Below are positions 3,993 through 32,922 of a stretch of 35,279 nt of DNA, in pieces. The notes beneath the pieces are model-generated. The model saw nothing but the letters and a program-made list of their open reading frames with translations. It was not told the origin of the DNA and did not search any database. Positions within the stretch are counted from its first letter, which is position 1. Every line of letters starts with the position of its first letter. The DNA is from an uncultured Bacilli bacterium (GTDB lineage: Bacteria > Bacillota_I > Bacilli_A > RF39 > UBA660): NCBI GenBank assembly GCA_944359085.1, contig CALVSQ010000010.1, forward strand, positions 1 to 35,279. Direction: 5' to 3'. The translations under genes were made by a program, and so were the position numbers.

Positions 3993-4060
3993 CTAATCAT
4001 CTCCTATTAATATTTTACACCATTATAAAGTAAAAAGTCCATATTTTTAACAAAATAAAT

Positions 4061-4086
4061 GAAAAAACACTTAATTTTAAGTGTTT
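4061..4086 (-). terminator. Terminator after obg
   Basis: On the minus strand the stem AAACACTTAA/TTAAGTGTTT is followed by a T run. The obg stop codon (4085-4087) overlaps it. Confidence 0.88.
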
Positions 4087-6828: not shown

Positions 6829-6857
6829 ATTTTAGCACATTTCCCCTTATTTGTCAA
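6829..6857 (-). promoter_or_regulatory. Promoter of the L21 operon
   Basis: The complement reads TTGACA, 17 bases, TAAAAT. It is a near-consensus housekeeping promoter placed correctly for the L21 leader, and lies across the end of the upstream M50 protease gene. Confidence 0.85.
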
Positions 6858-8065: not shown

Positions 8066-8099
8066 TTTTTCACCTTAATAAATATATGAATAAAAATTG

Positions 8100-8125
8100 A
8101 AAAAAAATGACTATTTTAAGTCATT
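8100..8125 (-). terminator. Terminator after the Rpn-family gene
   Basis: Minus-strand stem AATGACT/AGTCATT with a 6-base loop, followed by a T run; the stop codon of the gene at 8111 is inside it. Confidence 0.88.
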
Positions 8126-8935: not shown

Positions 8936-8942
8936 TTAAATC

Positions 8943-8975
8943 ACCTCCTATTAGTTTTATTAGCCAAAAGGAGGT
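8943..8975 (-). promoter_or_regulatory. Hairpin that can hide the ribosome binding site of the Rpn gene
   Basis: ACCTCCT (8969-8975 on the complement) pairs perfectly with AGGAGGT (8943-8949) around a 19-base loop. The second arm is the ribosome binding site itself, so folding would block translation. Confidence 0.55.
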
Positions 8976-9045
8976 CAAAATCCTTCTTAATTTATAAATA
9001 AATTTACAAATACACACAGTTTCTTATAAGATTTAATTATTTGTT

Positions 9046-9074
9046 AAAAAAAATCAAAAATTAATTTGATTTTT
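9046..9074 (-). terminator. Terminator after the rnfD-rnfG gene
   Basis: Minus-strand stem AAAATCAAA/TTTGATTTT with a 6-base loop and a T run, overlapping the last codons. The 100 bases beyond it, up to the Rpn leader, show no gene. Confidence 0.85.
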
Positions 9075-10446: not shown

Positions 10447-11702
10447 TATTTATCACCTCTTAATATTTTTTTTGCATCTTTAACTCTTTCTCTAACTAAC
10501 AAATTAGCAGGACATATATAAGAGCATAATCCACATTCAATACATTTTTCTGGATGTAATTTTTTTAACTTATTAATATCTTTATCTTTTTTTACTTTTG
10601 TCCTCATAATTAAAACTGGGCTTAATTTTGATGGACATACTTCGACACATTTACCACATTTCAAACAAATTGTAGGTATATCTATTTTATTTTCTAAAGC
10701 TAAAATACAATTCATATTAGCTGATACAACTAAATCTTCAACTTTTTTACCCATCATTGGCCCACCAGCAACAATTACACTATTTTCCTTAACTTTTAAT
10801 TGCTCTAAAACTTCACTTACTGGTGTTCCTATTTTTACTAAAACATTTCTTTTGTCTTGCAAATTTTCACCAGAAAAAGTTATTATTCTTTCTATTAATG
10901 GTTTATTATATTTTAAAGCTTCATATATTGCATAAATAGTAGATATATTATTAACAACTATTCCTTCTTCAATTGGATATTTATCGTATTCTTTATGAGT
11001 AACTTCTTTTATTAATTTTCTTTCCCATCCCATTGGATAAACATTAGGAACTAATTTAATTTTAATTTTCAAATAAGTTCCTATATAATTATCAAATGTT
11101 TGTTTTAATTCAACATTTTCTTTTTTTATAGCAATTATAGCTTCTTTAATTTTGTTTATTTCTAATATGGCATCTATTGCTTCTAATATTTCTTCACATT
11201 TTTGTTTAGCCAAAATATGATCTGCTGTAATATATGGTTCACATTCCACAGCATTAATAATAAGTGTATTTATATTTTTAGGTTCATATTTTACATATGT
11301 AGGGAAACCAGCTCCACCTAAACCTACTATTCCATTTTCCATCAATAAATTTAAAAATTCTTCTTTAGTATATTTATTTATACTTCTTTTTACACTTAAT
11401 TTTTGTTCAATTTTTTCTTTAAAATCATTTTCAATTACAACACATTTTACTTTTTCACCATTGAAACATGTTTTCTCTTCAAAATCTAATACTGTACCAC
11501 TGACACTAGAATGAATTGGAATACGAAAATCTCCTTTTCTTTTCCCAATAATACTTCCTTTATAAACATATTCCCCTTTTTTTACTAAAATAGTGATATT
11601 AGTATCATTACCGCTTATTAAAGGTATATATACTTTTTTTGGTTTATTATATACAAGCAACTTATCATTTGTTAATTTATGTTTATCTATCTTAACTTTC
11701 AT
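10446..11702 (-). CDS. rnfC: Electron transport complex subunit RnfC
   Basis: RnfC is the cytoplasmic NADH/FMN- and iron-sulfur-binding subunit of the Rnf complex. Evidence: the GLGGAGFPTYVK nucleotide-binding motif, NAVECEPYITAD, and two [4Fe-4S] clusters, CLKCGKCVEVCP and CIECGLCSYICP, near the C-terminus. The length of 418 residues is normal for short Firmicute forms. A GTG at 11723 is in frame, but it lies at or before the expected transcription start of the promoter at 11728-11756, so the ATG at 11702 is more likely. It forms a two-gene operon with the rnfD-rnfG fusion. Confidence 0.92.
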   Translation of the reverse strand: MKVKIDKHKLTNDKLLVYNKPKKVYIPLISGNDTNITILVKKGEYVYKGSIIGKRKGDFRIPIHSSVSGTVLDFEEKTCFNGEKVKCVVIENDFKEKIEQKLSVKRSINKYTKEEFLNLLMENGIVGLGGAGFPTYVKYEPKNINTLIINAVECEPYITADHILAKQKCEEILEAIDAILEINKIKEAIIAIKKENVELKQTFDNYIGTYLKIKIKLVPNVYPMGWERKLIKEVTHKEYDKYPIEEGIVVNNISTIYAIYEALKYNKPLIERIITFSGENLQDKRNVLVKIGTPVSEVLEQLKVKENSVIVAGGPMMGKKVEDLVVSANMNCILALENKIDIPTICLKCGKCVEVCPSKLSPVLIMRTKVKKDKDINKLKKLHPEKCIECGLCSYICPANLLVRERVKDAKKILRGDK

Positions 11703-11727
11703 ATTATCACACTTTCTATTCACAATA

Positions 11728-11756
11728 ATTATACTAAATTATATAACCAAATTCAA
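11728..11756 (-). promoter_or_regulatory. Promoter of rnfC-rnfDG
   Basis: The complement reads TTGAAT, 17 bases, TATAAT. Its -35 box abuts the T run of the der terminator. Confidence 0.75.
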
Positions 11757-11787
11757 GAAAAAAAACAAGATAATTTAATTTTCTTGT
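11757..11787 (-). terminator. Terminator after der
   Basis: Minus-strand stem ACAAGA/TCTTGT with an 11-base loop and a run of T; the der stop codon lies in the loop. Confidence 0.85.
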
Positions 11788-13091
11788 TCTCCTTTATTTT
11801 TGAATTGTAATACTATCGGTGTACCTTCAAAATCAAAAGACTCTCTTATTTTATTTTCTAAATATCTTTCGTAAGAAAAATGAATTAAACCTTTACTATT
11901 TACTTGAATATTAAATGTTGGTGGTTTATTTGATGCTTGATTACAAAAATAAATTTTCAATCTTTTACCTTTATAAGATGGTGGCAAATTAAGATTATAA
12001 GCATCTTTTATACAATCATTTATTAAGTTAGTTGCAATCATTTTAGTACTATTATTATAAACTTTTATTATTTCAGGCATTAAAGTATGCATTCTTTTAT
12101 GTGTTTTTGCAGATAAAAATACAATTGGTGCATAAGGCATAAATTGAAAATTATTACGAATATCTTTAATAAATTTTTTCATTGATTCATCTTTATCATC
12201 AACTGTATCCCATTTATTAACTACTATAATTATTGGCTTACCCGCTTCAATTGCATAACCTGCTATATGTTTATCATGTTCAATTATTCCTGTTTCAGCA
12301 TCAAGTACTAATAAACAGACGTCAGATCTATCAATTGCTTTCATACTTCTTAATAAACTATATTTTTCTACTGCTTCATAAATTTTACCTTTTTTTCTCA
12401 TACCAGCAGTATCTATAACAATAAATCTTTCATTATGATAAGTAAATGGTGTATCAATTGCATCTCTTGTAGTTCCAGCAACGTTACTTACAATTACTCT
12501 TTCTTCATTTAAAATAGCATTAACTAAACTACTTTTTCCAACATTTGGTCTACCAATAACACTAAATTTTATTGAATCATCATCTTCTTCAATTACTTCT
12601 TTAAAATCTTTAGTTATTTCTTTTAACAATTCATAAATTCCCTCATTTTGTTCAGAACTTATATTTATATAGTTATCAAATCCTAATTCATAAAAATCAT
12701 ATATATTGTCTTTAGCTAATTTACTATCTATTTTGTTAATAGCTACTATTATTTTTTTTCCTGATTTTAATAGCATGTCCTTAACTACTAAGTCATTAGT
12801 TGTTATTCCTTCTTTAGCATCTACTACAAAAACAATAACATCAGCTTCGTTAATTGCTATTTCAGCTTGAACTTTTATTTCATCATTAAATTTTTCATCA
12901 CTAATATCAATACCACCAGTATCGATCAAATGAAAAGAATAATTTTCAAACTTAACGTTGCCATATAATCTATCTCTTGTAATACCTGGAATGTCTTCTA
13001 TTATAGCCATTTTTGATCCAACAAGTCTATTAAATAATGTACTTTTACCAACATTTGGTCTTCCAACTAATGCTACAACTGATTTTTTCAT
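11775..13091 (-). CDS. der: GTPase Der (EngA)
   Basis: Der is an essential 50S-subunit assembly GTPase with two G domains in tandem. Both are seen: GRPNVGKSTLFNRL with DTGGID and NKID in the first, GRPNVGKSSLVNAI with DTAGMRKKGK and NKWD in the second, followed by the C-terminal KH-like domain (from about residue 350; NKPPTFNIQVN). The 438-residue length is typical. The ribosome binding site AAGGTG lies 7 bases before the ATG. It overlaps the upstream unknown gene by 4 bases and ends the engB-unknown-der operon, grouping two ribosome-assembly GTPases. Confidence 0.97.
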   Translation of the reverse strand: MKKSVVALVGRPNVGKSTLFNRLVGSKMAIIEDIPGITRDRLYGNVKFENYSFHLIDTGGIDISDEKFNDEIKVQAEIAINEADVIVFVVDAKEGITTNDLVVKDMLLKSGKKIIVAINKIDSKLAKDNIYDFYELGFDNYINISSEQNEGIYELLKEITKDFKEVIEEDDDSIKFSVIGRPNVGKSSLVNAILNEERVIVSNVAGTTRDAIDTPFTYHNERFIVIDTAGMRKKGKIYEAVEKYSLLRSMKAIDRSDVCLLVLDAETGIIEHDKHIAGYAIEAGKPIIIVVNKWDTVDDKDESMKKFIKDIRNNFQFMPYAPIVFLSAKTHKRMHTLMPEIIKVYNNSTKMIATNLINDCIKDAYNLNLPPSYKGKRLKIYFCNQASNKPPTFNIQVNSKGLIHFSYERYLENKIRESFDFEGTPIVLQFKNKGEQEN

Positions 13092-20316: not shown

Positions 20317-22476
20317 CTAATCTTCATCATTAAAGAAATCATCAAAAAATTGATCGTCAGTAACACCATTAATTACTTTATTATCTTCTTCTTCTAATTC
20401 AATTTTTGGTTCAATCTTATTTACAACTTCTTTATTATTAGAATTTGAAACGTTTTCTTTTACAACAGTATTTTCTTTTGTTGTAATATCTTTAATATTA
20501 TTTGTCTGTGTAATTTTTTCAACACTTTTTTGTTCAACTTTTGGTAATTCTTTAGTTTCTTTTTTGTCTTTCAATTGTTCTTGTTTTTCTTGTTCTTCTA
20601 ACTCAGCAATTTTAGCATCAATTCTCTTTACTAATGAATCTATATCAAAAGAATCATTTTTTTCTGAATTAGGAACTGGTTTTGCAAATGAAGAACCGCC
20701 AGGCATTGAAGAGTTCATTGGATTGAAAGAATTCATCATTTCATTCAATTTTGATTCTCTTTTTTTATCTACATAAGCTTTTATATCGAATAATTTGATT
20801 TCTTGTTTTTCTCTATTTGGATAAGTAGCTTTAGGATATGATTTACCCCAACCACCTTCCTTTTGAATTTTCCAATCTGGAACAACTTTTGTTTTAAATG
20901 GCATTGATCTAATTCTCAAAACAATTATTGTATTTTCAGGTAATCTTTGTAAATCACTAACGGTAACTAAAGGTGTGCTAGCTGTTTTATCTTTTTCTTT
21001 TGATTTTACTTCACCACATAATTTACTTATTTCTTCTAATGAAGCCAATTCACTACTAATAAGATAAACAATATTACCACAGTTACCTTTTATTGTTTCA
21101 CCATTTTCTTTGCCATAAACTTGATATAATTGTGCAAAGTTTTGAATAATAAATGTAAATCTTATATTTCTACTTCTTGCAGCAGTAACCATTGTTGTTA
21201 CATCTTTTAGTGGTGGCATATTAGCAAATTCATCTAGTATAAAGTTAGTTTTAAATGGTAATTTACCACCAGACTCTTGTGCCACATCAATTAACGTTTC
21301 ATAACATTGTTTAATAAAAATTGTAACTAAAGAGTGATAAGTTTTCTTTTCATCTTGAATAACTAAGAAAACCGCTGTTTTCTTTCTACCAATATCTTTT
21401 AAATCAAAATCACTATGGCTTAACATTTCAGATAAATTTTCTCTTGATGAAAACAATTTTATTTTTTGTTTAAAAACTGATAAAATACTACTTTTTGTAT
21501 CATTAGGAGCCATAATAGTAGATGAAACATTAATATATGCTGGACTTGATTTATCTTTATATCCAAAATATTCTTTTATATAAGTACTATTACCAATTTT
21601 TTCTTCACCTACTGTTGTCATTAAATTAATAGTATTTAAATTTATTTCTTCTTCTTTAGCATCTTCAAATAAAGCTAATGCTAAACCTGTAAAATAGTCA
21701 GCTGATGTTTTTTCCCAGAAAGGATCTTGACTTTGTGCTTTATCATCATAAAGAATATTCATAGCTAAGTCATCTAATAATTCGTTTGCTTTATCTTTAT
21801 TACCACTTTTATACAATTGATAAGGTAAACCTAATGGATTCCATGCACTACCTTTCTGTGGATCACGAAAATTTAATAATACAATGTTATATCCTTTTTC
21901 TCTTAACATTTCTGCATTATTTTCGTAAATTTCACCTTTAGGGTCAGTAATAATCATTGATTCACCTTTTTTAGCTAATATTCTAACCATTGGCTGAACC
22001 ATTGTTTGCGTTTTACCAGCACCAGTAGAACCTAAAATAAGATTATGATATTCTCCACCATCAACCCAAATTTCTTTACCATTATTTATTAATGGAATAC
22101 CTGCATATTCACTAGTTTCTTGATTTGGTAAAACTTTATAAATTTTATCTTGTTTTTTAAATTCTTTTTCCTCACACCATCTAGAATAGCCTTTTTCTTC
22201 CTTTACACCAGTTGTAAAACCAAATCCTTTATCTCTTTCAAAAAAATGTGAAGAAACACTAGTTATTATAAAAATAAGGGCAAAAATATAACCTACAATA
22301 GTTGGAACAATATATTCTTTTGAAAATGCAGGAATTGGATTAAACCCATGAAATGTTGCATTACTCGCAAAACTACCTAAATTTAAAACTGCAATTGCGA
22401 CAAAATATAATAATACTATGGCAAAAATTACAAAAATTAAATAATCTTTAGCACTAGCTTTAAATTTTAATTTCAT
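20317..22476 (-). CDS. VirD4/TraG-type coupling ATPase of the type IV secretion-like system
   Basis: Type IV coupling proteins bring substrates to the secretion channel. About 719 residues: two N-terminal membrane helices (about 12-34 and 58-78), the P-loop LGSTGAGKTQTM near residue 150, ITDPKGEIYENNA, SAWNPL, Walker B NFILDEFANMPPL and the FIIQNFAQL segment, all of the TraG/VirD4 family. The C-terminal 150 residues are a charged, Gln/Lys/Glu-rich tail that ends very acidic (DDQFFDDFFNDED) and is a plausible substrate- or partner-binding region. The GTG at 22485 lies inside the GAGGTG ribosome binding site, so I start at ATG 22476. It is the last gene of the secretion block. No relaxase is nearby, so the substrate may be protein. 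Confidence 0.92.
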   Translation of the reverse strand: MKLKFKASAKDYLIFVIFAIVLLYFVAIAVLNLGSFASNATFHGFNPIPAFSKEYIVPTIVGYIFALIFIITSVSSHFFERDKGFGFTTGVKEEKGYSRWCEEKEFKKQDKIYKVLPNQETSEYAGIPLINNGKEIWVDGGEYHNLILGSTGAGKTQTMVQPMVRILAKKGESMIITDPKGEIYENNAEMLREKGYNIVLLNFRDPQKGSAWNPLGLPYQLYKSGNKDKANELLDDLAMNILYDDKAQSQDPFWEKTSADYFTGLALALFEDAKEEEINLNTINLMTTVGEEKIGNSTYIKEYFGYKDKSSPAYINVSSTIMAPNDTKSSILSVFKQKIKLFSSRENLSEMLSHSDFDLKDIGRKKTAVFLVIQDEKKTYHSLVTIFIKQCYETLIDVAQESGGKLPFKTNFILDEFANMPPLKDVTTMVTAARSRNIRFTFIIQNFAQLYQVYGKENGETIKGNCGNIVYLISSELASLEEISKLCGEVKSKEKDKTASTPLVTVSDLQRLPENTIIVLRIRSMPFKTKVVPDWKIQKEGGWGKSYPKATYPNREKQEIKLFDIKAYVDKKRESKLNEMMNSFNPMNSSMPGGSSFAKPVPNSEKNDSFDIDSLVKRIDAKIAELEEQEKQEQLKDKKETKELPKVEQKSVEKITQTNNIKDITTKENTVVKENVSNSNNKEVVNKIEPKIELEEEDNKVINGVTDDQFFDDFFNDED

Positions 22477-22516
22477 TATGTTCACCTCATAACTATAAAT
22501 AAGTATATCACATTAT

Positions 22517-23227
22517 TTAATCAATTTCATTATTTTTTTTAATTTTAATATAAATATATAAAGATGTCATTAATATAAATAAAATGATTCCTCCTATTAT
22601 TATTATTGAAATTAAATTATTTTGAATATAATCCAATATCATAACATCGTATCTAACTTTAGGTCCTATTTTAAAATACAAATTATCTTTAGTTGTATTT
22701 TTATTAACTATCCAAGTATATATATTACTTTTTTTATCTACTTTATCAGCATTATGATTTACTATTTCATTATAAAATTTTATATTAATTGTATATGTAT
22801 TATTTTTTGAGTCTTCTGAAACAATTTCATCATTTTTAATACTCTCTAAAAATTGATTTTTTGAAGTTTCAAATTTAGTATAACTACCTATTCTTTCTAT
22901 AGTAGCATTATTAAACATATTTTTAAAAGAAACAGATGCTACATAATCATCTAAATTTGAATATTTTCTAGTCACAATAAAACTAGATATTTTATTATCA
23001 GATTTTGTATTAACCTTATAGTTTTCATAGCCAGAATTTTGTAAATACAAATTAGAATAATAATCTAAATATTCCTCTTTAGACATTGAACTATTTTCAA
23101 TTGTCTTATTATCAACATATATATATATTTTCTCTTTAACTTCCTCTTTATTTGTTATAGTTAAATCATACTTAACATCACATCCTGTTAATAAAATTAA
23201 TACTGCTAAAATAAATATTTTTTTCAT
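22517..23227 (-). CDS. LppM-like lipoprotein with C-terminal membrane helix
   Basis: 236 residues. The signal peptide has a lipobox LLTGC (Cys15), so the mature N-terminus is lipid-anchored outside the membrane. The body is mostly beta-strand (YDLTITNKEEVKEKIYIYV), and a membrane helix near the end (about 208-229) is followed by a basic tail. A lipobox plus a final membrane helix is the layout of LppM-type proteins. It lies 8 bases after the SpoIID/M23 gene and 40 bases before the coupling protein, so it is probably a part of the same secretion complex on the outer face. Its exact role is unknown. Confidence 0.75.
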   Translation of the reverse strand: MKKIFILAVLILLTGCDVKYDLTITNKEEVKEKIYIYVDNKTIENSSMSKEEYLDYYSNLYLQNSGYENYKVNTKSDNKISSFIVTRKYSNLDDYVASVSFKNMFNNATIERIGSYTKFETSKNQFLESIKNDEIVSEDSKNNTYTINIKFYNEIVNHNADKVDKKSNIYTWIVNKNTTKDNLYFKIGPKVRYDVMILDYIQNNLISIIIIGGIILFILMTSLYIYIKIKKNNEID

Positions 23228-23235
23228 ATTACCTC

Positions 23236-25521
23236 CTAGTTACAACTTGGACAACCAGATTCTTCGATACATTGTTGTTCTGAAGCATATAATGCGCCTC
23301 CAACCATTCCACTTAATTGAACATTTTTAAAATAAGAAACAGGATCTTCTTTAACTTTATTATTGTTTTCATAATGATAAATTTCAATGTGTAAATGGTT
23401 TCCAGTTGATTCACCAGTTGAACCAACATTGCCTATCTTTTGTCCAGCCTTTACATGTTCTCCAACACTTACCAACGTTGAAGGTCTAATTTGATGAGCA
23501 TATAAACTATAATATTCATATTTATTAGTAGTAGCATCATAATTGCCATGACCTATCACAACATAATTCCCATATGAATAATGATTTGGTACATTTTGTA
23601 CTACTACTCCATCAGCAATTGAATAAATATTAGCATCAGCAGGAGCAGATATATCCGTTCCACCATGAGTCCTGCAACAATTATCAATTGGATGTACACG
23701 CCATCCAAAAGCAGATGTAACATTATTATTATTTAAATCCAAAGGATATCCTACCGATGAAACGTTTATTTCTTCAATATTACCTTTATAAAAATAATTA
23801 AGTACTTGTTGATAACTGCTACCATTTTCTATCATAGTATTAGCTACCGCTTGATCCATTATATTTGTAGAAGAATTACAAGTTTCATTAACACAACTAG
23901 ATCTATATTGTGTAACTACAAAAGATTCATTTTCAATAACAAATTCTGAAAAAGTACTATCTATAGCAACTTTAATTTTTTTTAATGTTTCAACATCATC
24001 TAATGGTTTTTGATAATAATTCCCATTTTCATCCGGGCCACTAACGATAGTATCATGATTATCATCATCACCATCTTCCATACTATGACATCCTTCTGCC
24101 ACACTACAATATACCTGATTCATCGCACAACTTTTAATACGCAAATTGGTTGGTAAAGCGTTTACATCTGCATTATTTATGGCATACAAATAATTTTTTA
24201 CCACAACTGCCATCAATTTTAAAAATTCTTCTGATCTACCAGTAGCAAATCCTTCAACATATAATACTCCTTGTATATAATCATATAAAGAAACTTCTTC
24301 CATTACAAGTCCATTATTACAATCTAGTATAGTTACTGTAGTATTATTTATAGCGAAATAATCGGATGTGTTTTCTGTCCCAGAAATATATTCATAAAAC
24401 TCAACCCTAGAAAAAATTTCATCAATTACATTTTTTATTTCTATATTAATTTCTTCGCCTTGTTTATTATCAAAATAAAAATATCTTATAAAGTATGTTT
24501 CTAAATATTCTTTATATTTATTAAGATTGACTTTCCAATATTTTTTTTCTATTTTATCTTCTATTTCTTCATCATCACAATCAACTTCATCATCATTTTC
24601 ATCATAACATTTTATTTCTTCAAAAACCATATTTTGAGCTAATTTAGAGACCATTTTTTTGCTTTTTTTGAAATTAATCATATTTGAAGATGGTAATTCT
24701 TCAACATTTTCAATATCTTCTTCAATATCTTCAAGAGTTATCAATGGATCAGAATATGTTAATGTTGCTATTATTAATGATGTATTTAATTCTACATTCT
24801 TCTCTTTTTTATATTTATCATGAACTTTATCTACTTCATCATAAAAATCATTTTTTTCAATTTCATAGCATTCCTCATCAGTACACCATCCTCTTAATGT
24901 TACAAAATTTCCTACTTTTTCAAAAAATGAAGAAGTTTTTCCTAATAAAGAATCCATATAAAAAAGCGGAGAAATAATTATACTTATAACAGCAATAATT
25001 ATTAAAAATACAAAACATCCACTTAATAAACCTGGAACTAGGGTTAAAAATTTAGTTATTTGTTTTGATAATTCAATTGAACCATTAACACTATTTTTTT
25101 CATCATTTGGTTTACTATCTTGTTGATTTTTTAAATTTTTTCTTGCTTTTAGTAAATTAAATGGATTACCAGGTGCTATTGTAGAGTTATCAGCTGCTTG
25201 ATTTATTATTTTATCTCCCACTTCAGTTTTGGATAATTCTTCAACTACTTGTCCCCCTACACCAGGTGCATAAGCATCCCCAATTTTTTTAAAAGTTTCT
25301 TTAGCCAATTTTTTTTTATAATTTTTTATTGGGCCATTACCTGAATTCGAACTTCCATTTTGATTTTTTTTATAAAAATTACCTTCACTAGATTGATTAT
25401 TATTATTGTTTAAATTATTTTGATTATCAATTGGATTTGGTGATGCCGAAAAATTCCCTTCATCAGGAATTCTTCGTTGAAATTTTTGTGGATCATATCC
25501 ATTATTTGGTTTATTATTCAT
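23236..25521 (-). CDS. Membrane-anchored SpoIID-like + M23 peptidoglycan enzyme of the secretion locus
   Basis: 761 residues. A Gln/Asn-rich cytoplasmic head (1-150) is followed by one membrane helix (about 160-186) and a large outer part. Residues 405-585 look like SpoIID: EEVSLYDYIQGVLYVEG, then KLMAVVVKNYLYAI, and at the end NGSSYQQVLNYFYKG, matching the family's opening and closing motifs. Residues 600-735 are an M23 metallopeptidase with the full set: His619 and Asp623 in THGGTD, His676 in YAHQ, and His709/His711 in NHLHIE. SpoIID cuts glycan strands and M23 enzymes cut peptide bridges, so the protein could open the wall for the channel. Gram-positive conjugation systems normally use SLT plus NlpC/P60 instead. 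Many Cys residues in the outer part suggest disulfides. Confidence 0.88.
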   Translation of the reverse strand: MNNKPNNGYDPQKFQRRIPDEGNFSASPNPIDNQNNLNNNNNQSSEGNFYKKNQNGSSNSGNGPIKNYKKKLAKETFKKIGDAYAPGVGGQVVEELSKTEVGDKIINQAADNSTIAPGNPFNLLKARKNLKNQQDSKPNDEKNSVNGSIELSKQITKFLTLVPGLLSGCFVFLIIIAVISIIISPLFYMDSLLGKTSSFFEKVGNFVTLRGWCTDEECYEIEKNDFYDEVDKVHDKYKKEKNVELNTSLIIATLTYSDPLITLEDIEEDIENVEELPSSNMINFKKSKKMVSKLAQNMVFEEIKCYDENDDEVDCDDEEIEDKIEKKYWKVNLNKYKEYLETYFIRYFYFDNKQGEEINIEIKNVIDEIFSRVEFYEYISGTENTSDYFAINNTTVTILDCNNGLVMEEVSLYDYIQGVLYVEGFATGRSEEFLKLMAVVVKNYLYAINNADVNALPTNLRIKSCAMNQVYCSVAEGCHSMEDGDDDNHDTIVSGPDENGNYYQKPLDDVETLKKIKVAIDSTFSEFVIENESFVVTQYRSSCVNETCNSSTNIMDQAVANTMIENGSSYQQVLNYFYKGNIEEINVSSVGYPLDLNNNNVTSAFGWRVHPIDNCCRTHGGTDISAPADANIYSIADGVVVQNVPNHYSYGNYVVIGHGNYDATTNKYEYYSLYAHQIRPSTLVSVGEHVKAGQKIGNVGSTGESTGNHLHIEIYHYENNNKVKEDPVSYFKNVQLSGMVGGALYASEQQCIEESGCPSCN

Positions 25522-25540
25522 TTACATCACCACCAATTAA

Positions 25541-27325
25541 TTATAATCCGCCACCACTTCCAAATGAATCTAATTCTTGTTCAGTAGCAATAACATTTAT
25601 TCTCATTCTTCTACTGCCACATACAAATAATGCTTCACCTTGGTTGTAACGTTTTATACTCTCTTTTTCATTATCATTTAAATCTATTAATTTAGATAAA
25701 TCCTCAACTGCTTGTTTTTTTAATCCCATAACTAAATAATAAGAAGCATTGTCAAATATAGCTTTTCCTTGAGTTATAACTGAAGGATCACTAAAATCTG
25801 AAGGTTGTTGAGTAATTATTATAGTGCCAGTATTATACTTTCTAGCACGTCTTTGAATTTGTCCTAAAAAATCTGCACCTAATATATTATTGCCAGAAAT
25901 TAAAACGTGAGCTTCATCAACAGTTAAAACCGTATTTATATTTGGATTCAAAGTTAAACTCCAAGCATATTTTAAAACATTAAAGAATAAAGCATTCCTA
26001 ATATTTTTATCACTATTCATTAATTCTTTAATATTAAATACAACAAAATTACTTTGAGGTTGAATAGTCGTATGACCATCAAAATAATATCTCAATTCTT
26101 TTACTAAAGGGCGTATTTTTAATTCCAATTTTTCTAATATATCTTTTTCGTGTGTTTTTTCTGGAATAGATAATAATTTACCTCTAATTGTTGCATAAAT
26201 ATCTTTAAAAGTTGGATAATCTTTAGACGTTAACTTAGAAAAATCAGTAGTAAAATCTATTCCAAATCTTCTATAAGTATCTTGGGCTATTTCACTAAAT
26301 ACATTAATTACATCTTCTTCTGTACTAGGATCATAATATTTAATAAATGCTTTTAAAGATTGTAAAGTTCTTGTTAAAACAGTGTACCCTAATCCTTGTT
26401 TGATTTCTTCTTCATCAGCATCCATTATAATTTCAAGTGGATTTATCATACCGAATTCTCCACCTTTTCCTAAATCAATGAAATCTCCACCATATAATCT
26501 TGCCATGTCTTCAAATTCACCTTCTGGATCTATTATTACAATCTGATTATCATTTCTTATATGAGTTCTAATCAATAGTTTAGCAGCAGTAGATTTACCA
26601 GAACCAGATGTACCTAAAACAATTATATTGGCATTATTTCTATTATGTTCTTTCTTTATTTGATATAAAAATTGGTTAAACAATATAACTCCACCAGAAA
26701 AATCAACACCTAATAAGCACGATAATCCTGGATCTTTTATACTATCAAATATAAATGGAAACATAGCGGCAATTGTAGGTGCAGGAATAGGAGTACCTAT
26801 TCTATTTTCAATTGATTGATTAGGATAAATAGGTAAAATTGATTTTAAAACTCTTTCTTGTTCAAATCTTAAAGGAAAAGCTTTCATTTCCATTGCTTCT
26901 AAATAACTTTTTACTTGTAATTTTTTTGCTATTAATTCTTCTTCTGAATTAGCTGTAACCATTACATGCATTTGAAAATCATATATTTTAGATTGTGTAC
27001 TAACTAATTGTGAAATAAAATATTCTAATGATTCATAATCTTGTCTTATTCTTTCTTGAATAGTTTTATCGTTTTCTTCTTGATATCTAGCTTTTAAATC
27101 AGCTATTTCCTTATTTAACATTCTTTGAATAACACTAAAAGGAAGTGGAATATGTTTTATAACAACTTTAACTCCTGACATACTAGTTAAATTAGCTAAA
27201 TAACCAGGAGAAATAAATTTTGGATATGAAACTACTGTTAAAATAGTAGCATATTTGTCACTTATAACAAAATCACTTGATCTAAATTCTAAGCCCTTAG
27301 GAGCTATTTGACTTTTTATATCCAT
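25541..27325 (-). CDS. VirB4-like ATPase, main part
   Basis: VirB4 ATPases drive assembly and transport in type IV secretion systems. In 594 residues: an N-terminal module (1-190) with long helices, P-loop VLGTSGSGKST (237-246), IIDPEGEFEDMARLYGG, the Walker B TVDEAHVLISG and TIIITQQPSDF, all typical of the VirB4/TraE family. VirB4 proteins are usually about 600-820 residues; the neighbouring 180-residue gene encodes what looks like the missing N-terminal piece, and together they make 774. The ATG overlaps the stop of that gene by one base (TAATG), implying coupled translation. Confidence 0.93.
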   Translation of the reverse strand: MDIKSQIAPKGLEFRSSDFVISDKYATILTVVSYPKFISPGYLANLTSMSGVKVVIKHIPLPFSVIQRMLNKEIADLKARYQEENDKTIQERIRQDYESLEYFISQLVSTQSKIYDFQMHVMVTANSEEELIAKKLQVKSYLEAMEMKAFPLRFEQERVLKSILPIYPNQSIENRIGTPIPAPTIAAMFPFIFDSIKDPGLSCLLGVDFSGGVILFNQFLYQIKKEHNRNNANIIVLGTSGSGKSTAAKLLIRTHIRNDNQIVIIDPEGEFEDMARLYGGDFIDLGKGGEFGMINPLEIIMDADEEEIKQGLGYTVLTRTLQSLKAFIKYYDPSTEEDVINVFSEIAQDTYRRFGIDFTTDFSKLTSKDYPTFKDIYATIRGKLLSIPEKTHEKDILEKLELKIRPLVKELRYYFDGHTTIQPQSNFVVFNIKELMNSDKNIRNALFFNVLKYAWSLTLNPNINTVLTVDEAHVLISGNNILGADFLGQIQRRARKYNTGTIIITQQPSDFSDPSVITQGKAIFDNASYYLVMGLKKQAVEDLSKLIDLNDNEKESIKRYNQGEALFVCGSRRMRINVIATEQELDSFGSGGGL

Positions 27326-27867
27326 TATCCTAACACCGTCCCAAAAGTAGTAGTAGTACCACCATTTAAAAAGTTATCCAAAATCATTCTTAAATCATCA
27401 TTAGTAGTTTGATATGCAACTAATCCAGCGCCAGCAAAAGTATTGATTAAGTTTCTTATTCTTTTTTGAATTAAATCATCTTTTTTTTCTCTAAATAATA
27501 AGAAATATTCTGTATCAACTATATTATTATTCATAAACATATTACCTTTATTAATATCTTCCATTATTAATTTTCTTTTAACCGGACTACTAACATTATT
27601 ATATAATAATTCTAATTGAGATAAATATATATTAATATCAACAGGTCTATCAGCAGCTATTATCCAAAATTCATAATCAATAGTATTATAAACAGTTCTT
27701 AAATTAGAAATAATGCTATCTTGCGTATTTTGATCAAGAATAAATATGTTTCTTGGCATTATTTTTACTCCTGTAACCTTTAAACCATTATCTAAAATTA
27801 TATAGCCATTTTTTATTTCTTTTACCGGAATATCATCATTTGTATATCTATTTCTTTTCTTCGCCAT
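27325..27867 (-). CDS. N-terminal VirB4-like module encoded as a separate gene
   Basis: 180 residues, soluble, no P-loop. It begins with a basic head and then IPVKEIKNGYIILDNGLKVTGVKIMP, the kind of opening seen at the N-terminus of VirB4/TraC-like ATPases of Gram-positive conjugative elements, and a mid-part of helices (VDINIYLSQLELLYNN) with the end NGGTTTTFGTVLG. The gene overlaps the PrgI-like gene by 20 bases and the VirB4 gene by one base. I read it as a split VirB4 N-terminal domain; it could also be a distinct adaptor. Confidence 0.7.
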   Translation of the reverse strand: MAKKRNRYTNDDIPVKEIKNGYIILDNGLKVTGVKIMPRNIFILDQNTQDSIISNLRTVYNTIDYEFWIIAADRPVDINIYLSQLELLYNNVSSPVKRKLIMEDINKGNMFMNNNIVDTEYFLLFREKKDDLIQKRIRNLINTFAGAGLVAYQTTNDDLRMILDNFLNGGTTTTFGTVLG

Positions 27868-28162
27868 GAGGAAAACACCAACCCTTCCATTTAAACTTTC
27901 TTTGATTCATATAAAAACCTATTGCCGAAGCTATTAACGTTCTCATATTGTAATAATTAGGAACCGGCATTACTAGGAATCCAGTTATTAATGCCGGTAA
28001 TAATGCTATTATGGCAAACGTAATTTGTTCAACTGGTAGAAGTAATAACAATAATAATGTTAAACCCACACCAATACCAAATAATATTAAATCAAATGTT
28101 GTAAACAATCCTAAAATTAACATTGATTTTTTAGCGTTTGCTGGTATTAAATAATTATTCAT
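27848..28162 (-). CDS. PrgI/VirB3-like membrane protein
   Basis: 104 residues with two close membrane helices (about 15-42 and 46-65) and a basic C-terminal tail that ends KWKGWCFPHGEEKK. Size, two-helix hairpin and placement immediately before VirB4 match PrgI-family/VirB3 proteins, which anchor VirB4 at the membrane. The ribosome binding site is weak. It overlaps the next gene by 20 bases. Confidence 0.8.
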   Translation of the reverse strand: MNNYLIPANAKKSMLILGLFTTFDLILFGIGVGLTLLLLLLLPVEQITFAIIALLPALITGFLVMPVPNYYNMRTLIASAIGFYMNQRKFKWKGWCFPHGEEKK

Positions 28163-28178
28163 CTAGTATCACACCCTT

Positions 28179-30053
28179 TTATTTTTTATTCCAATTACTA
28201 TCATTTCCGATTATTATTCCTGAACTAGTATATTGTTCACCTTTATGAACATTTACAGTACCACCATTTTGAGTTTGCACTTGACCACTGCTTGTAGCAG
28301 TATTTATAGTTGTCCCTGTTGATGAACCTGATGAATTATCAGAAGTTGATAATTCAACAGTAACTTTAGGTTGCGCTCCACTCATTATTGCACTTGCTGC
28401 ACCTCTAGCGGCATCAACATCTGTTTTTGGTGAATCATCAATGTGATATAATCTCTTAATATCCTTAATTTGATCATCAAGTGAACTAATATTTTTAGCA
28501 TATTTTCCATAAAGAGATCTATTATCTTCTATTGCTTTATTTAATTTATTCTTGTCTTCTTCAGTTGTAGCTTTAGCAAGTTGATCATAGAATGTTTGTA
28601 GCTGAGCATCTAATTTTGCTTGTTCACCTTGTATTGCATACTTACTTTTCTTTAAATTATCTATTTCATCTTTACCAGAATTCTTTCCGAATTCTTTCCA
28701 TGGACTATATACCGAATAATCTTTTCCAGTTATTTCTTTAAATCCAGCTTGCATACCAGTATGAAGTGCTCTAGGACTTTTTCCTTTGTCGTCTCCCATT
28801 AGAGGAACTTTTCCTTTTATTTCTCTTCCAGCTCCCATCATACCTTGAATCAAACCTCTACCGGCATGTCCAGCTTGTACACCTGCTTTATATCCTGTAT
28901 AAGCTCCACCTGCTAAAGCAGCAGCAGTTGTAACACCAGCTCCAACCAAAGGTGTTTGACGCAATTTATTCATAGGATTCAAAGTAAACTTATCATCCAT
29001 TTTAATTCCTGTTAAATCTTGAATTAATTGAGGTAATTGTTTAGCAAATAATAATGCTCCTAAAATTATAAATACTTTTACAAATACATTAACTTCAGCT
29101 GGTAATCCTGTTGTTGCGTCAACAAATTTTAAATCAATAACTTGAGTTATAACAAAAATAGCAAAATAAATAGCAAGTAATCTTATAAATAAATCTAAAT
29201 ATGTCCCTATAGTTGTTTTAACCCATTTGTCAAATGTTTCTTTACCTTTTTTAGGATCAATTCTAGAAATAATTGGGACTGGAGCAATCATACGTAAGAA
29301 ACCCAATTTTACACTTCTAAGTGCAACATCAAAACAAAAGACAATCAATAATAATAGTAAAGCCACACCTGCTAATGTTGAAATTATAGGAATATAATAC
29401 ATAACATATTCATCGTTTGAATCTTTCAAATGCAATAAATCATAATCCATATATACATTTATACTTTGCGAATTGAATGAATTATTTAAGATATTTTTTA
29501 AATTATCATAATCACTACCTATTCCTAATTTGCAAGAATCAGTATCTTTAAGCAATCCATTTTCATTTACGCAATCAGAATATTTGTCATAATCAAAATG
29601 ATAAAATGCCTTAAATGTTTCATACGCCATAACATTTCCAGCATTGGCAGTAACATTTGGATTTACACTAGTAGTTGAAAATATTTTTCCTAAAATATTA
29701 TCTCTTAAAATTATTTGTTGGATTTCCATTGCTTGAGAGAATAACCAAGGTGTAGCAATTAACAAAGTAAGAGTAATAATAACATTACTAATTAATTTAC
29801 TAAAACCTTTACTTTTGTCTAAAAATGCGTCTGGATCAACTATATAAGTTAAGATTGAAAACGATACTTTGAATAGCATAAAAATACCTAAAAGTCCATA
29901 AACTTTTGAGGCAAAAGTATCAAAAATATCTTCTGTAAAAATAGTAGTATTAGCTATATCAACCAAAAGATTATAAATAGTTGGAACAAAGCCATAAAAT
30001 AATTTATCAAGCCAAAACGATATGAAACGTAAAATTGTCTCTAACCATCCCAT
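28179..30053 (-). CDS. VirB6/TrbL-like polytopic channel protein
   Basis: 624 residues: an amphipathic start, about six to seven membrane helices within the first 360 residues, an outer loop of about 100 residues with two Cys (SDCVNENG, TDSCKLG), and the cytoplasmic loop FLRMIAPVPIISRIDPKKG seen in VirB6/TrbL proteins of Gram-positive type IV secretion systems. VirB6 proteins form the inner-membrane channel. The last 250 residues are hydrophilic: a Gly/Ala-rich stretch, a coiled coil (about 455-535) and a Ser/Thr/Gly tail. The start is preceded by GAGGTG. A terminator and a -10 box lie between this gene and the pilin gene upstream. Confidence 0.85.
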   Translation of the reverse strand: MGWLETILRFISFWLDKLFYGFVPTIYNLLVDIANTTIFTEDIFDTFASKVYGLLGIFMLFKVSFSILTYIVDPDAFLDKSKGFSKLISNVIITLTLLIATPWLFSQAMEIQQIILRDNILGKIFSTTSVNPNVTANAGNVMAYETFKAFYHFDYDKYSDCVNENGLLKDTDSCKLGIGSDYDNLKNILNNSFNSQSINVYMDYDLLHLKDSNDEYVMYYIPIISTLAGVALLLLLIVFCFDVALRSVKLGFLRMIAPVPIISRIDPKKGKETFDKWVKTTIGTYLDLFIRLLAIYFAIFVITQVIDLKFVDATTGLPAEVNVFVKVFIILGALLFAKQLPQLIQDLTGIKMDDKFTLNPMNKLRQTPLVGAGVTTAAALAGGAYTGYKAGVQAGHAGRGLIQGMMGAGREIKGKVPLMGDDKGKSPRALHTGMQAGFKEITGKDYSVYSPWKEFGKNSGKDEIDNLKKSKYAIQGEQAKLDAQLQTFYDQLAKATTEEDKNKLNKAIEDNRSLYGKYAKNISSLDDQIKDIKRLYHIDDSPKTDVDAARGAASAIMSGAQPKVTVELSTSDNSSGSSTGTTINTATSSGQVQTQNGGTVNVHKGEQYTSSGIIIGNDSNWNKK

Positions 30054-30094
30054 ATGAACACCTCATTTATTAACGAATTTCTCAATCTTATATA

Positions 30095-30123
30095 ATTATA
30101 TCATAAAAAAAAAAGATAATAAA
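30095..30123 (-). promoter_or_regulatory. Possible internal promoter before the VirB6-like gene
   Basis: The complement has TATAAT (30095-30100) and, 17 bases upstream, a poor -35 TTTATT inside the terminator stem. It would restart transcription of the secretion genes after the pilin terminator. Confidence 0.4.
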
Positions 30124-30138
30124 CAATTTATTAATCTT
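30105..30138 (-). terminator. Terminator between the pilin and VirB6-like genes
   Basis: Minus-strand stem of 11 bp with one bulged T (AAGATTAATAAA/TTTATTATCTT), loop TTG, then a run of ten T. It probably lowers expression of the channel genes relative to the pilins. Confidence 0.78.
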
Positions 30139-30141
30139 TTT

Positions 30142-30495
30142 TTATCTTTGTACGCAATTGCTATTAGATTCACTATAATTAATAAAGCAATCAACACAAC
30201 CCCAAATATTACCATCATTGTCGTTAGCAACTAAATTAAACACGATTTGAACGATAAATACTATTAAGAAAACAACAACTGCGGCAATTAATCTCTTTAT
30301 AAAAGTTTGTTGACCCTTTTTAATTTCATCTTCTTTTTGAGCCATTACAGCTTTACCTAAATCTAACATACCAAAAACAATTAATAAAATTGGAACAACA
30401 ATTTTAATTATTGTTATACCAGTTGTAACTAATTTAGGAATCATTTCATTCATAACTATGGTTCCATCACCACAAGTAACATCTAATAAAAACAT
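30142..30495 (-). CDS. VirB2-like pilin, copy 2
   Basis: 117 residues with two membrane helices joined by a charged cytoplasmic loop (AQKEDEIKKGQQTFIKR), the hairpin layout of VirB2/TrbC pilins, and a C-terminal outer part with CVDCF. It is a paralogue of the next gene upstream: the motifs GMLDxxKAV, AQKEDxIKKGQQTFIxRL and CVDCFxN are shared. Unlike that copy it has no signal peptide; it starts MFLLDVTCGDG. The ATG at 30510 lies ahead of the GGGAGG ribosome binding site, so I use the ATG at 30495, seven bases after it. Confidence 0.8.
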   Translation of the reverse strand: MFLLDVTCGDGTIVMNEMIPKLVTTGITIIKIVVPILLIVFGMLDLGKAVMAQKEDEIKKGQQTFIKRLIAAVVVFLIVFIVQIVFNLVANDNDGNIWGCVDCFINYSESNSNCVQR

Positions 30496-30543
30496 GCAAT
30501 ATCCTCCCATCTACATATATAATACTATATATTCTTTTAATTG

Positions 30544-30951
30544 TCAATTCACTATTGTACAATTACCGTTAACAAAACAGTCAACACAATTCCACATATT
30601 CTGATTTTCATTTTTTGGAGCAACAAATCCTATTATTATTTCAACAAATAAAAACACTAAAAATACTAAAGCTCCTATTGCTAGCCTTCTAATAAAAGTT
30701 TGTTGTCCTTTTTTAATATCATCTTCTTTTTGAGCTATAACAGCTTTCAAAAAATCCAACATGCCAAATATTATTATAATTATTGGTGTAGCAATTTGTA
30801 ATATTATAAATACAATTCTAACAATTTGTGGTGCAATATAAGGTATAAAACTATCACCGCATTGAATTTTTTGATAACTTGCAGCTTGAACAAATGTAGT
30901 TGAATAAATAAATAGAAAGATAAAACTTAAACAATAACATAATTTTTTCAT
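30544..30951 (-). CDS. VirB2-like pilin, copy 1, with signal peptide
   Basis: 135 residues. A signal peptide (cleavage likely after VQA, residue 23) precedes a short outer segment with a Cys and then two membrane helices around the loop AQKEDDIKKGQQTFIRR, ending with NMWNCVDCFVN. VirB2-type pilins build the filament or channel lining of type IV secretion systems. It lies 9 bases after the TadZ-like gene, with ribosome binding site GGTGAAAAA. Paralogue of copy 2; the Cys residues kept in both suggest disulfides or a metal site. Confidence 0.8.
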   Translation of the reverse strand: MKKLCYCLSFIFLFIYSTTFVQAASYQKIQCGDSFIPYIAPQIVRIVFIILQIATPIIIIIFGMLDFLKAVIAQKEDDIKKGQQTFIRRLAIGALVFLVFLFVEIIIGFVAPKNENQNMWNCVDCFVNGNCTIVN

Positions 30952-30959
30952 TTTTTCAC

Positions 30960-31946
30960 CTAAAATAATCCTAAGATTTTTTTCCTTTTTTCGCCTTCTT
31001 CAGTTTGTTGTCTTAAAAATCCTAATTTAGCTAAAAAAGTATCCATAATCAATATATTTGAATCATGTTCATTTAATGGTGGCATATTAAAGAAAAATTT
31101 TGCTCTTGCTTCATATTGTAATTCTAAAACATCTTTAGAACTTAATAAACTTTGATTTAAAATTATTTTTCTACCTTCTAATTGTTTGAAAACATTTCTA
31201 TTTATGTGTATTAATCTATTTAATTTAATTATTGAAGGTTCAACCAAATATATAATTTCTTGTACTAATCCTAAAGCTACTGGGCTCTTGTTAACATCAA
31301 TAATAATAGCATCTCTATCATTATTTTTTTCAATGAAATTTCCTAGTTCTTTACTTGAAATGCTAAACAAACTTTTTTTATCATTAAAATAATTAAAATC
31401 ATTAGAATCTACTTCTACACCAATAGCATTATAATTTTTCTTTAACTGTTTTACCATTAAATAGGTAAAAGTTGTAGCACCACTTTGATCTGTTAAATTT
31501 TTAATACCAATAACACGGCAATAATTAGCTTCTGTTCCTTGATATACAATTTGTTGCTCTTGATCATCTAATTGATGATATTGTGCAACATCACGATAAC
31601 TATTTGGATTATTATATAAATAAAGAACACCTTCTGCATTTCTTGTAAAATTATAAATCCCCATTGATATTAATTTTGACAAATAACCAGGTGATGATGA
31701 TTCTTCATTATCATCCAATAACAAAATCAATTTATCCATATCTAATGAAATTGACAATTTTTGTAAAGTTCTTATATCTGTGTAATCTTTTAATGCTGTA
31801 ATATCTAAAATCATTCTTTGATAATAAAAATTTTTAAACATTTCAATTATTTCATCTACTGAATATTGTCCCTCAATAGATTTAATAATATCAATATTCA
31901 AATTAGACAACATATCCTTTTTTTGATTAACTATAATTACATTCAT
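30960..31946 (-). CDS. TadZ/CpaE-like protein with a degenerate P-loop
   Basis: 328 residues. Residues 1-125 look like a receiver-type domain without phosphorylation site, and residues 140-300 like a MinD/ParA-type ATPase, the layout of TadZ/CpaE, which places Tad pilus machines in the cell. At the P-loop the sequence is DQSGATTFT (153-161): the Gly-Ala-Thr-Thr frame is kept but the Walker Lys is absent, so ATP hydrolysis is unlikely, as in some TadZ proteins. It abuts the pseudopilin-like gene upstream with no gap and the pilin gene downstream by 9 bases. No TadA, TadB or TadC is in the window. Confidence 0.72.
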   Translation of the reverse strand: MNVIIVNQKKDMLSNLNIDIIKSIEGQYSVDEIIEMFKNFYYQRMILDITALKDYTDIRTLQKLSISLDMDKLILLLDDNEESSSPGYLSKLISMGIYNFTRNAEGVLYLYNNPNSYRDVAQYHQLDDQEQQIVYQGTEANYCRVIGIKNLTDQSGATTFTYLMVKQLKKNYNAIGVEVDSNDFNYFNDKKSLFSISSKELGNFIEKNNDRDAIIIDVNKSPVALGLVQEIIYLVEPSIIKLNRLIHINRNVFKQLEGRKIILNQSLLSSKDVLELQYEARAKFFFNMPPLNEHDSNILIMDTFLAKLGFLRQQTEEGEKRKKILGLF

Positions 31947-32396
31947 TTATCCTTCAACCTCGCTTTTTTCAAATAAAATTCTAGATTCACCATATAACGG
32001 TATTTCAATAAAACTACCTATTATAGGAAAATCAAAATGAATAAATACTCTTACCCCATAATAATATCCTTTTGATGTATGAAATTCATAAACACAATAA
32101 TTATAAGAACTATTTGTATTTAATGGTTGAATAGGATTTTGAGAATCTTCAGGATTATCAACTGCCTCACACTTTTGATTAAGATCTATTTGATATCCAA
32201 CCATCCTTAAATTTTCATCAATTTCTGTTTGAGCTGCACTAGTATAACCATCATATTTTTCAATAATATCTATTATTCTATTTCGCACCTTAAATCCTTT
32301 TGAATATGCAATCGATCCAATATAAAGCGCAATAAAAATACCAATAAAAATTAATACAAAATTTAAAACCATAGTAGTTCCTACTGCTTCCTTCAT
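31947..32396 (-). CDS. Single-pass pseudopilin-like protein, copy 2
   Basis: 149 residues: a short N-terminus, one membrane helix (about 9-30), then an outer domain of about 115 residues. It is a paralogue of the gene at 32479: both share FKVxNRIxxxxEKYxGY after the helix, EIDxxLxxxGY, a Cys, YxYCxY and GYYYGV. This resembles TadE-type pseudopilins; a VirB8-like assembly protein, which has the same one-helix layout, is the main alternative. It has its own promoter and GGAGGGAAAG site and begins the main secretion transcript. Confidence 0.65.
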   Translation of the reverse strand: MKEAVGTTMVLNFVLIFIGIFIALYIGSIAYSKGFKVRNRIIDIIEKYDGYTSAAQTEIDENLRMVGYQIDLNQKCEAVDNPEDSQNPIQPLNTNSSYNYCVYEFHTSKGYYYGVRVFIHFDFPIIGSFIEIPLYGESRILFEKSEVEG

Positions 32397-32420
32397 ACTT
32401 TCCCTCCATATTCTTTTTAA

Positions 32421-32449
32421 ATTATACTATATTTTTGTAATTTCTTCAA
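32421..32449 (-). promoter_or_regulatory. Promoter for the main secretion transcript
   Basis: The complement reads TTGAAG, 17 bases, TATAAT, 25 bases before the gene start and just after the terminator of the preceding paralogue. Confidence 0.72.
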
Positions 32450-32469
32450 GTTTTTTAAAAATATAATAC

Positions 32470-32493
32470 AAAAAAGAATCATTTTGATTCTTT
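32470..32493 (-). terminator. Terminator after the first pseudopilin-like gene
   Basis: Minus-strand stem AAAGAATCA/TGATTCTTT with loop AAA and a T run; the TGA stop at 32479-32481 is inside it. Confidence 0.88.
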
Positions 32494-32922
32494 AGAAGTA
32501 AACTTAAACATTCGATTAGTTTTAGTAAAAACAGGGAAATTTATAATATCTACCAATGGCAAATCTAAATTCATATATGTCAAAACACCATATATGTAAT
32601 ATCCATTTTTTGGTGGCTTTTTATTATCAATATATATACAATAACGATAATTTTCATTAAATGAATCTATTAAAATCATACCATTATATGTTTGTTTACA
32701 ATTAGCATCTTCAACAGAATAACCTAAATTGCCTAATACTCTATCAATTTCTTTTTTGGAATAATCATTATATCCCTCATATTTTTCTAAAGTTTTAACT
32801 ATTCTATTATTAACTTTAAAAGCTTTATAATAGCTTAAAGTACCAGATATAAATGCGAAAACAATAATTACAAAAATTATAACAATATTATAAATAAAAG
32901 TATGTCCGACTGGTCCGCTCAT
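32479..32922 (-). CDS. Single-pass pseudopilin-like protein, copy 1
   Basis: 147 residues with one membrane helix (about 9-31) and an outer domain containing the Cys pair and GYYIYGV shared with the next gene. See that entry for the family choice (TadE-like pseudopilin, or VirB8-like). It has its own promoter upstream and a strong terminator downstream, so it forms a monocistronic unit and may be made in a different amount from its paralogue. It is the first gene of the secretion block, directly after tyrS. Confidence 0.65.
   Translation of the reverse strand: MSGPVGHTFIYNIVIIFVIIVFAFISGTLSYYKAFKVNNRIVKTLEKYEGYNDYSKKEIDRVLGNLGYSVEDANCKQTYNGMILIDSFNENYRYCIYIDNKKPPKNGYYIYGVLTYMNLDLPLVDIINFPVFTKTNRMFKFTSKESK

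Follow-up and report, generated by a model that had tools for sequence, protein, structure and literature searches.

The stretch of DNA studied here (the window, 35,279 nucleotides, contig CALVSQ010000010.1 of assembly GCA_944359085.1, from an uncultured RF39-type bacterium of the Bacilli) carries between positions 20317 and 32922 a gene cluster that joins a type IV secretion system (T4SS) to parts of a Tad pilus. We are confident that this is a relaxase-less, MPF_FATA-like T4SS fixed in the chromosome, linked to a divergent Tad pilus and derived from a mobile machine of Bacillota that already paired the two. The fuller reading that we favour, in which the machine now serves as a contact-dependent exporter, most likely of proteins, we hold with belief and doubt evenly balanced. 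The cluster comprises 12 open reading frames (ORFs), all on the minus strand and tightly spaced, between tyrS and a rhodanese-rmuC pair. An earlier note, made from the sequence, had counted eleven genes; their position, strand and spacing hold, and the count becomes 12 once the two pieces of VirB4 are taken separately. The gene set that it named is real, with clear profile support for VirD4, both VirB4 pieces, VirB6 and the M23 enzyme, and the same set in the same order was found in tens of genomes, which excludes chance.

Two proteins of the T4SS are ATPases. VirD4, the coupling ATPase (20317..22485, minus strand like all window genes of the cluster; 722 residues, two N-terminal transmembrane helices and a low-complexity tail), matches NF045973 (CD1115 family) with 298 bits, over its cut-off. 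VirB4 is split. Its C-terminal piece with the ATPase domain (25541..27325; 594 residues) covers positions 295-891 of NF045975 with 365 bits, which is below a cut-off set for the full-length protein, and its N-terminal piece (27325..27867; 180 residues) covers positions 98-276 (4e-13) and is TrsD-like by position and homology. The split was seen in 99 of 117 genomes spread over the RF39-type order (one of them broken across two contigs) and in 80 of 80 further contigs, which were picked by VirB4 similarity and are thus biased to near kin. A frameshift was rejected as its cause: the same split point is fixed across the order, is found on plasmids too and matches the TrsD/TrsE organisation. Nor is the split new, because TrsD is a separate VirB4-N-like protein in pGO1-type systems (PMC12102498).

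Around these ATPases lie a VirB6/TrbL-like polytopic membrane protein with a variable tail (28179..30053; 624 residues; NF045889, 3.5e-10, and TrbL_4) and a VirB3/PrgI-like protein with two transmembrane helices (27848..28162; 104 residues; 0.24 as a single-protein match). A wall enzyme (23236..25521) combines a transmembrane helix, a SpoIID-like domain and an M23 endopeptidase (3.1e-23, motifs HGGTD and HLH); the SpoIID part matches weakly (SpoIID_LytB, 0.0034), yet its catalytic-type Glu position appears retained. A search of PHROGs gave M23 matches alone of note. VirB4, VirD4, PrgI/VirB3, VirB6 and a wall hydrolase, the make-up of an MPF_FATA-type Gram-positive T4SS, share this one cluster. 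A lipoprotein with lipobox LTGC and a C-terminal transmembrane helix (22517..23227) is LppM-like; the window copy had no profile match and that of a relative (L029) matches PF21946 at 1.9e-4. Across relatives, a large family of 218-976 residues (L137:11794-13803 and 44 relatives) lies mostly directly 3' of virB4C, in many cases at loci for which a SpoIID-M23 gene had not been recognised; it had no Pfam domain in the member tested and is perhaps a divergent wall enzyme. Small membrane proteins in the interval from the M23 gene to virD4 (L137:16429-16923, L150:15793-16311) could be VirB8-like, of NTF2 type, judged by look only.

Two VirB2-like pilins, pilA (30544..30951; 135 residues, signal peptide) and pilB (30142..30510; 122 residues), are assigned from family alignments with weak profile support: pilB matches the T4SS_pilin model PF18895 at 0.011, pilA had no match to it, and neither sequence matched the PDB. 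Relatives have arrays of 1-6 such pilins, some of them fused to big secreted, variable N-terminal domains to give proteins of 300-685 residues with a signal peptide (L062:14356-16047, L067:4335-6392, L069:5164-7035, L028:8913-10016 and others). A fusion of 791 residues is found in the Mycoplasmatota plasmid CP074574 (L085:3231-5606). All these fusions are possible adhesin-pilins.

The Tad-type genes of the window are a TadZ/CpaE-like gene (30960..31946), encoding a receiver-like and a degenerate ParA-like domain, and two for one-helix pseudopilins of TadE/DUF4320-like type, psp1 (32479..32922; 147 residues, leader MSGPVG) and psp2 (31947..32396; 149 residues, leader MKEAVG). The TadZ-like protein had no sequence match, including against the PDB. 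We call it TadZ because its AlphaFold model (predicted local distance difference test, pLDDT, 83; predicted template modelling score, pTM, 0.54) was matched by Foldseek along the whole chain to 3fkq, from Eubacterium rectale, which has two domains and is known as the TadZ of that species, and to ParA folds. Throughout the family the Walker A lysine is lost and SGATT is kept. Both pseudopilins, judging from the family alignment and an AlphaFold2 model of the psp2 family, have a long N-terminal helix followed by a beta sheet, behind a short conserved leader M(K/R)xxxG. The model found no fold match in the PDB, and the profile of the family is similar, along its first 52 residues, to DUF4320/TadE-like proteins of plasmids (hhalign 85.7%).

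The earlier note had contrasted the machine with Tad systems, which use TadA, TadB and TadC. A lack of these Tad genes was not borne out and is rejected: most of 20 tadZ loci of relatives have rcpC, tadA, tadB, tadC and the gene of a small Flp-like pilin directly 5' of psp1, psp2 and tadZ. In the window genome this missing half stands apart from the T4SS, as it does in two close species, on contig C31 (L087, coordinates given without strand), with rcpC at 8090-8926, tadA at 8926-10125, tadB at 10138-11040, tadC at 11040-11822 and flp at 11882-12121. RcpC and TadA have Pfam support. TadB and TadC had no Pfam match and are assigned solely through a profile chain, in which they match the TadB and TadC sets of plasmids at 99.0 and 98.8% and those sets match canonical TadB and TadC at 98.7 and 97.9%. 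For Flp, kinship with plasmid Flp was not detected (48.9% over 11 columns). TadA, TadB, TadC, Flp, RcpC, TadE-like proteins and TadZ, the gene set of a Tad (Flp) pilus, are hence present as a single run in relatives and with the help of C31 in the window genome. One A24 prepilin peptidase (G000:C5), unlinked to the cluster, may serve an ordinary type IV pilus. Some RF39 genera have a second, canonical Tad (L177:4042-9900, also L178-L181) with Flp motif KGQALVEYLLI, TadE/F-like proteins, a ParA with intact Walker A and CpaF; in L177 it sits between obgE and murC, genes that are adjacent in the window (3992-4085) with no Tad between them.

The two modules are retained across the order and associated with one another. 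Among the 117 genomes split virB4C is present in 99, tadZ in 94 and both in 87 (odds ratio of association 11); 12 have the T4SS without TadZ, three of these having this TadA, and 7 have TadZ without split VirB4. Where both occur they lie no more than 13 kb apart on one contig in 45 of the 87 genomes, and 16-109 kb apart on the same contig in 6. The ancestral order is rcpC-tadA-tadB-tadC-flp-psp1-psp2-tadZ-pilA-pilB-virB6-prgI-virB4N-virB4C-(M23-lppM)-virD4. tadZ and the T4SS form one run in 12 of the 20 tadZ loci, although one of the 12 (G013, the near twin of the window) is without tadABC there. Among the further contigs picked by VirB4 similarity, tadZ precedes virB4C in 50 of the 55 that extend at least 9.8 kb in the 5' direction, and virD4 lies 3' of it in 59 of 59 contigs with 9 kb of flank, where the downstream neighbours are rhod (50/59) and rmuC (48/59). 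Breakpoints vary, falling between flp and psp1 in the species group of the window and between pilB and virB6 in others. In a 392-genome sample of the phylum the RF39 TadZ profile found nothing outside its own family, to which all 17 matches belong. In one genome (G009, L091:9374-10774) a helix-turn-helix or transposase-like ORF is inserted on the opposite strand between pilA and pilB, the cluster being otherwise intact.

Inheritance of the cluster is broadly vertical and under strong purifying selection. In 24 genomes compared with ObgE as reference, VirB4C distances follow those of ObgE (r 0.65, 0/2000 permutations), and VirB4C identity is higher than that of ObgE in 96% of genome pairs (mean 72 vs 62%). 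TadZ (r 0.61), TadA (r 0.59) and VirD4 (r 0.39) distances also correlate with those of ObgE, and VirB4C with TadZ distances at 0.75. The ratio of non-synonymous to synonymous substitution rates (dN/dS), computed between close species, is 0.017-0.039 for VirB4C, 0.011-0.066 for VirB4N and about 0.08-0.12 for VirD4; values for VirB4C and VirD4 are similar to those of tyrS, rnr and rmuC. psp1 gives 0.07-0.23. pilA (0.17-0.30), VirB6, M23 and lppM are far looser than the ATPases. The ATPases are fixed, the surface parts variable.

The kin of both modules are found on mobile elements. Sets of sequences were compared by profile, single-sequence profile comparisons being too insensitive, and besides TadB and TadC the RF39 families match mobile-element sets at 99.9% (RcpC), 99.4% (VirB4N), 99.0% (PrgI) and 98.6% (VirB6) hhalign probability. 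In a TadA tree, RF39 TadA nests among mobile Tads of Bacillota (support 95/87 and 100/99, with long branches), away from the canonical CpaF group, which takes in the ordinary Tad that some RF39 genomes have as a second locus. A search of plasmids with VirB4 led to circular plasmids with both Tad and T4SS modules. Exiguobacterium pEYLC1.2 (NZ_CP082335.1) and the Parageobacillus thermoglucosidasius plasmid NZ_CP063416.1 share with the RF39 cluster RcpC, a ParA-like protein, TadA, TadB- and TadC-like proteins, a small Flp-sized ORF and DUF4320 together with VirD4 (CD1115), TrbL/VirB6, PrgI and VirB4; pEYLC1.2 also has a PF18895 pilin. The Mycoplasmatota zrk4 plasmid (CP074574.1) has both modules, a relaxase not being seen in it, and its VirB4, like that of pEYLC1.2, is split as in RF39. 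These systems differ in being plasmid-borne, in gene order, in a lysozyme-family instead of a SpoIID-M23 wall enzyme and, for pEYLC1.2 and Parageobacillus, in having a relaxase (MobP3 and MobQ, respectively). The earlier note had considered that the arrangement might belong to a known relaxase-bearing family of elements; the gene set does occur with a relaxase on these two plasmids, so that half of this possibility is borne out, but their genes are ordered differently and the literature searched does not describe them as a family. Most simply, an ancestor of RF39 would have acquired a Tad-bearing conjugation machine, which then lost its relaxase. In another Bacilli family (G029, L079:5217-13862) tadA-tadB-tadC runs straight into virB6-prgI-virB4C-virB4N, with the VirB4 pieces reversed and an ArdC-like gene downstream, and this is likely a mobile Tad and T4SS element.

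Does the machine still move DNA? PF03432 relaxases are present in 19 of the 117 genomes and MobL in 14, and none of these MOBP- or MobL-type relaxases lies within 15 kb of a split virB4. The order-wide presence, descent-like distances and stable flanks of the cluster differ from the patchy pattern of mobile elements. The VirB4s of integrative and conjugative elements (ICEs) in the same genomes (n=17) serve as an internal control: they are unsplit, 785-864 residues long and 26-34% identical, and by comparison of coordinates a MobL relaxase lies about 2-3 kb from 13 of the 17. A role in DNA transfer would have the chromosomal T4SS act in trans on mobilisable elements, or export or import chromosomal DNA in the manner of the gonococcal island or of H. 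pylori ComB, while the Tad pilus would provide the contact. Every clear relative is indeed a conjugation machine, VirD4 is retained and constrained, the PF03432 relaxases lie away from the machine in their 19 genomes, and Tad serves transformation in Micrococcus luteus according to a work cited in PMC5696575. We still consider this rather improbable, as the relaxases of both families are rare and unlinked, those of MobL travel with an ICE-type VirB4 of their own, and a helper for parasites is not expected in about 85% of genomes under a constraint stronger than that on ObgE. As to uptake, ComB-like import of DNA does not use VirD4.

It is also unlikely, in our view, that the machine acts in surface display and adhesion, the T4SS mainly assembling VirB2-like pilins into an adhesive coat comparable with Bartonella Trw, and Tad being a second adhesive pilus, with no export into cells. 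The fast evolution of pilins and surface parts, the arrays of several pilins, and the variable ectodomains of the fusions in relatives and in CP074574 would fit such a coat; VirD4, which is dispensable in Trw, is however conserved and present in all 59 loci with enough flank. A decaying remnant of an ICE or integrated conjugative plasmid, persisting by chance, would agree with descent from mobile machines, with the missing relaxase and with the lack of an integrase among the window ORFs, but is extremely improbable for a mostly single-copy, intact, order-wide cluster with low dN/dS and conserved order and flanks, and was rejected on these grounds.

Several observations weigh against a contact-dependent exporter in which Tad pilus and T4SS belong together. 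TadZ and this TadA are both missing from about 9 of the 99 T4SS genomes, and several others have the modules unlinked. The coupling is therefore not obligatory, and a single obligate complex is rejected. For 36 of the 87 genomes in which both occur, the two sit on different contigs, and assembly breaks of the metagenome-assembled genomes allow no judgement. No effector or cargo gene was recognised; the recurrent extra genes of the clusters encode membrane or secreted proteins, in which no Pfam domain was found. Kinship with the plasmids was not detected for the pilins in the set-to-set comparison (2.7%) and is weak for TadZ (64%), and the VirB4 tree is not strong enough to position the RF39 clade against plasmid systems; we make no claim on its deep placement because ICE rows fell within RF39 on long branches. 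The absence of relaxases holds for PF03432 and MobL within 15 kb of the 99 split virB4 genes; MOBQ, MOBV, MOBT and MOBF were not searched genome-wide. Of the undescribed hybrid that the earlier note had proposed, one ancestral cluster kept across the order, with no relaxase detected, survives; a single obligate hybrid does not. We found no paper in the open-access literature on RF39-type bacteria with a T4SS or Tad, nor one naming Tad and T4SS plasmids as a kind; the hybrid is nevertheless not unique, given the plasmids with the same gene set.

A relaxase-less channel, fixed in the chromosome and usually beside Tad genes, suggests that an old mating machine now serves cell contact and not plasmid transfer. 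We infer both the joint working of pilus and channel and the direction of transport. By analogy with R64, PAPI-1 and Patescibacteria we propose that TadA, TadB and TadC with RcpC and TadZ would assemble Flp and TadE-like subunits into a thin pilus, which could touch a neighbouring cell and pull it closer. The SpoIID-M23 enzyme would then open the wall, VirB3, both VirB4 pieces and VirB6 would form a membrane channel displaying the VirB2-like pilins, and VirD4 may feed cargo, most likely proteins, to the surface or into the neighbour.

In Patescibacteria the MPF_FATA T4SS lacks a relaxase and comes with VirB2 arrays and a VirB4-N protein; S. epibionticum cannot grow on host cells without it (PMC12102498, PMC12857230). 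Such systems (e.g. Southlakia epibionticum) resemble the RF39 machine in being chromosomal, mostly without relaxase, with an MPF_FATA-type VirB4, TrsD-like VirB4-N, PrgI, VirB6, VirB2 arrays, wall hydrolases beside virB4 and small-genome hosts. They differ in that VirD4 is mostly far from virB4 and non-essential, whereas it is adjacent in RF39, and their partner is an ordinary type IV pilus encoded elsewhere instead of a Tad locus within the same cluster. R64 and PAPI-1 use a type IV filament to gather recipients for the T4SS or to recognise them (PMC12857230, PMC5297154). The thin pilus of IncI R64 and the type IVb pilus of PAPI-1, with its VirB4/VirD4, are likewise encoded together with a T4SS, but these systems are Gram-negative, mobile, type IVb and not Tad, and active in conjugation. 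On Flp/tad plasmids of Cutibacterium acnes the tad locus neighbours genes of VirB4-like and TcpC-like type, a link that the authors left open (PMC5696575); these plasmids share with RF39 the Gram-positive host and the pairing of tad with a VirB4-like gene, but are actinobacterial linear plasmids, non-chromosomal, with an FtsK/TraB-type translocase. The Mycoplasma ICE (Mbov_0396/0397 families), source of the best NCBIfam models for VirB4 and VirB6, is mobile, comes from wall-less cells, has no Tad and has an unsplit VirB4 model. Patescibacteria thus already provide Gram-positive T4SSs that lack a relaxase and have VirB2 arrays and a separate VirB4-N, and C. acnes plasmids already provide Tad beside VirB4.

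The genome measures 1.13 Mb in 59 contigs, of which the window is C10, and is estimated to be 68% complete. Its closest named kin, all uncultured gut Bacilli, include Candidatus Faecisoma merdavium (94% VirB4C identity; filed under Mycoplasmatota by NCBI), Coprosoma and Pelethosoma. Promoter and terminator scans gave results no better than chance. Elsewhere in the window, a single ORF (9061-10446, minus strand) fuses RnfD to an RnfG-like FMN_bind domain and is adjoined by RnfC (10446-11723), RnfA, RnfB and RnfE not being among the adjacent ORFs. At 6847-8065 (minus strand), near the gene for ribosomal protein L21, an M50 protease beside a small M23-domain membrane protein recalls SpoIVFB/SpoIVFA; we know of no sporulation in this lineage. 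An ORF of tandem QPTQPV/A repeats (148-450, plus strand) overlaps, and lies 5' of, the ORF at 413-1669.

Common in the guts of animals, RF39-type bacteria are uncultured and of obscure lifestyle. Retained by about 85% of their genomes and with a VirB4 more constrained than ObgE, the machine must matter to them. In function it is most closely paralleled by the T4SS on which a Saccharibacterium relies for life on its host cell. We speculate, as a tentative possibility, that RF39-type bacteria need to make contact with other cells, of bacteria or of a host, by means of a Tad-guided T4SS, and that they may be a second lineage, independent of Patescibacteria, in which a Gram-positive conjugation machine became a core organelle of contact or feeding. 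According to reviews, Gram-positive T4SSs are nearly all known for DNA transfer only and mostly lack VirB2 pilins; this large group of Bacilli offers a second test case beyond such systems. The machine suggests ways to seek the partners of these bacteria and to attempt their cultivation, and the Tad and T4SS conjugative-type plasmids of culturable Bacillota are a possible experimental model.

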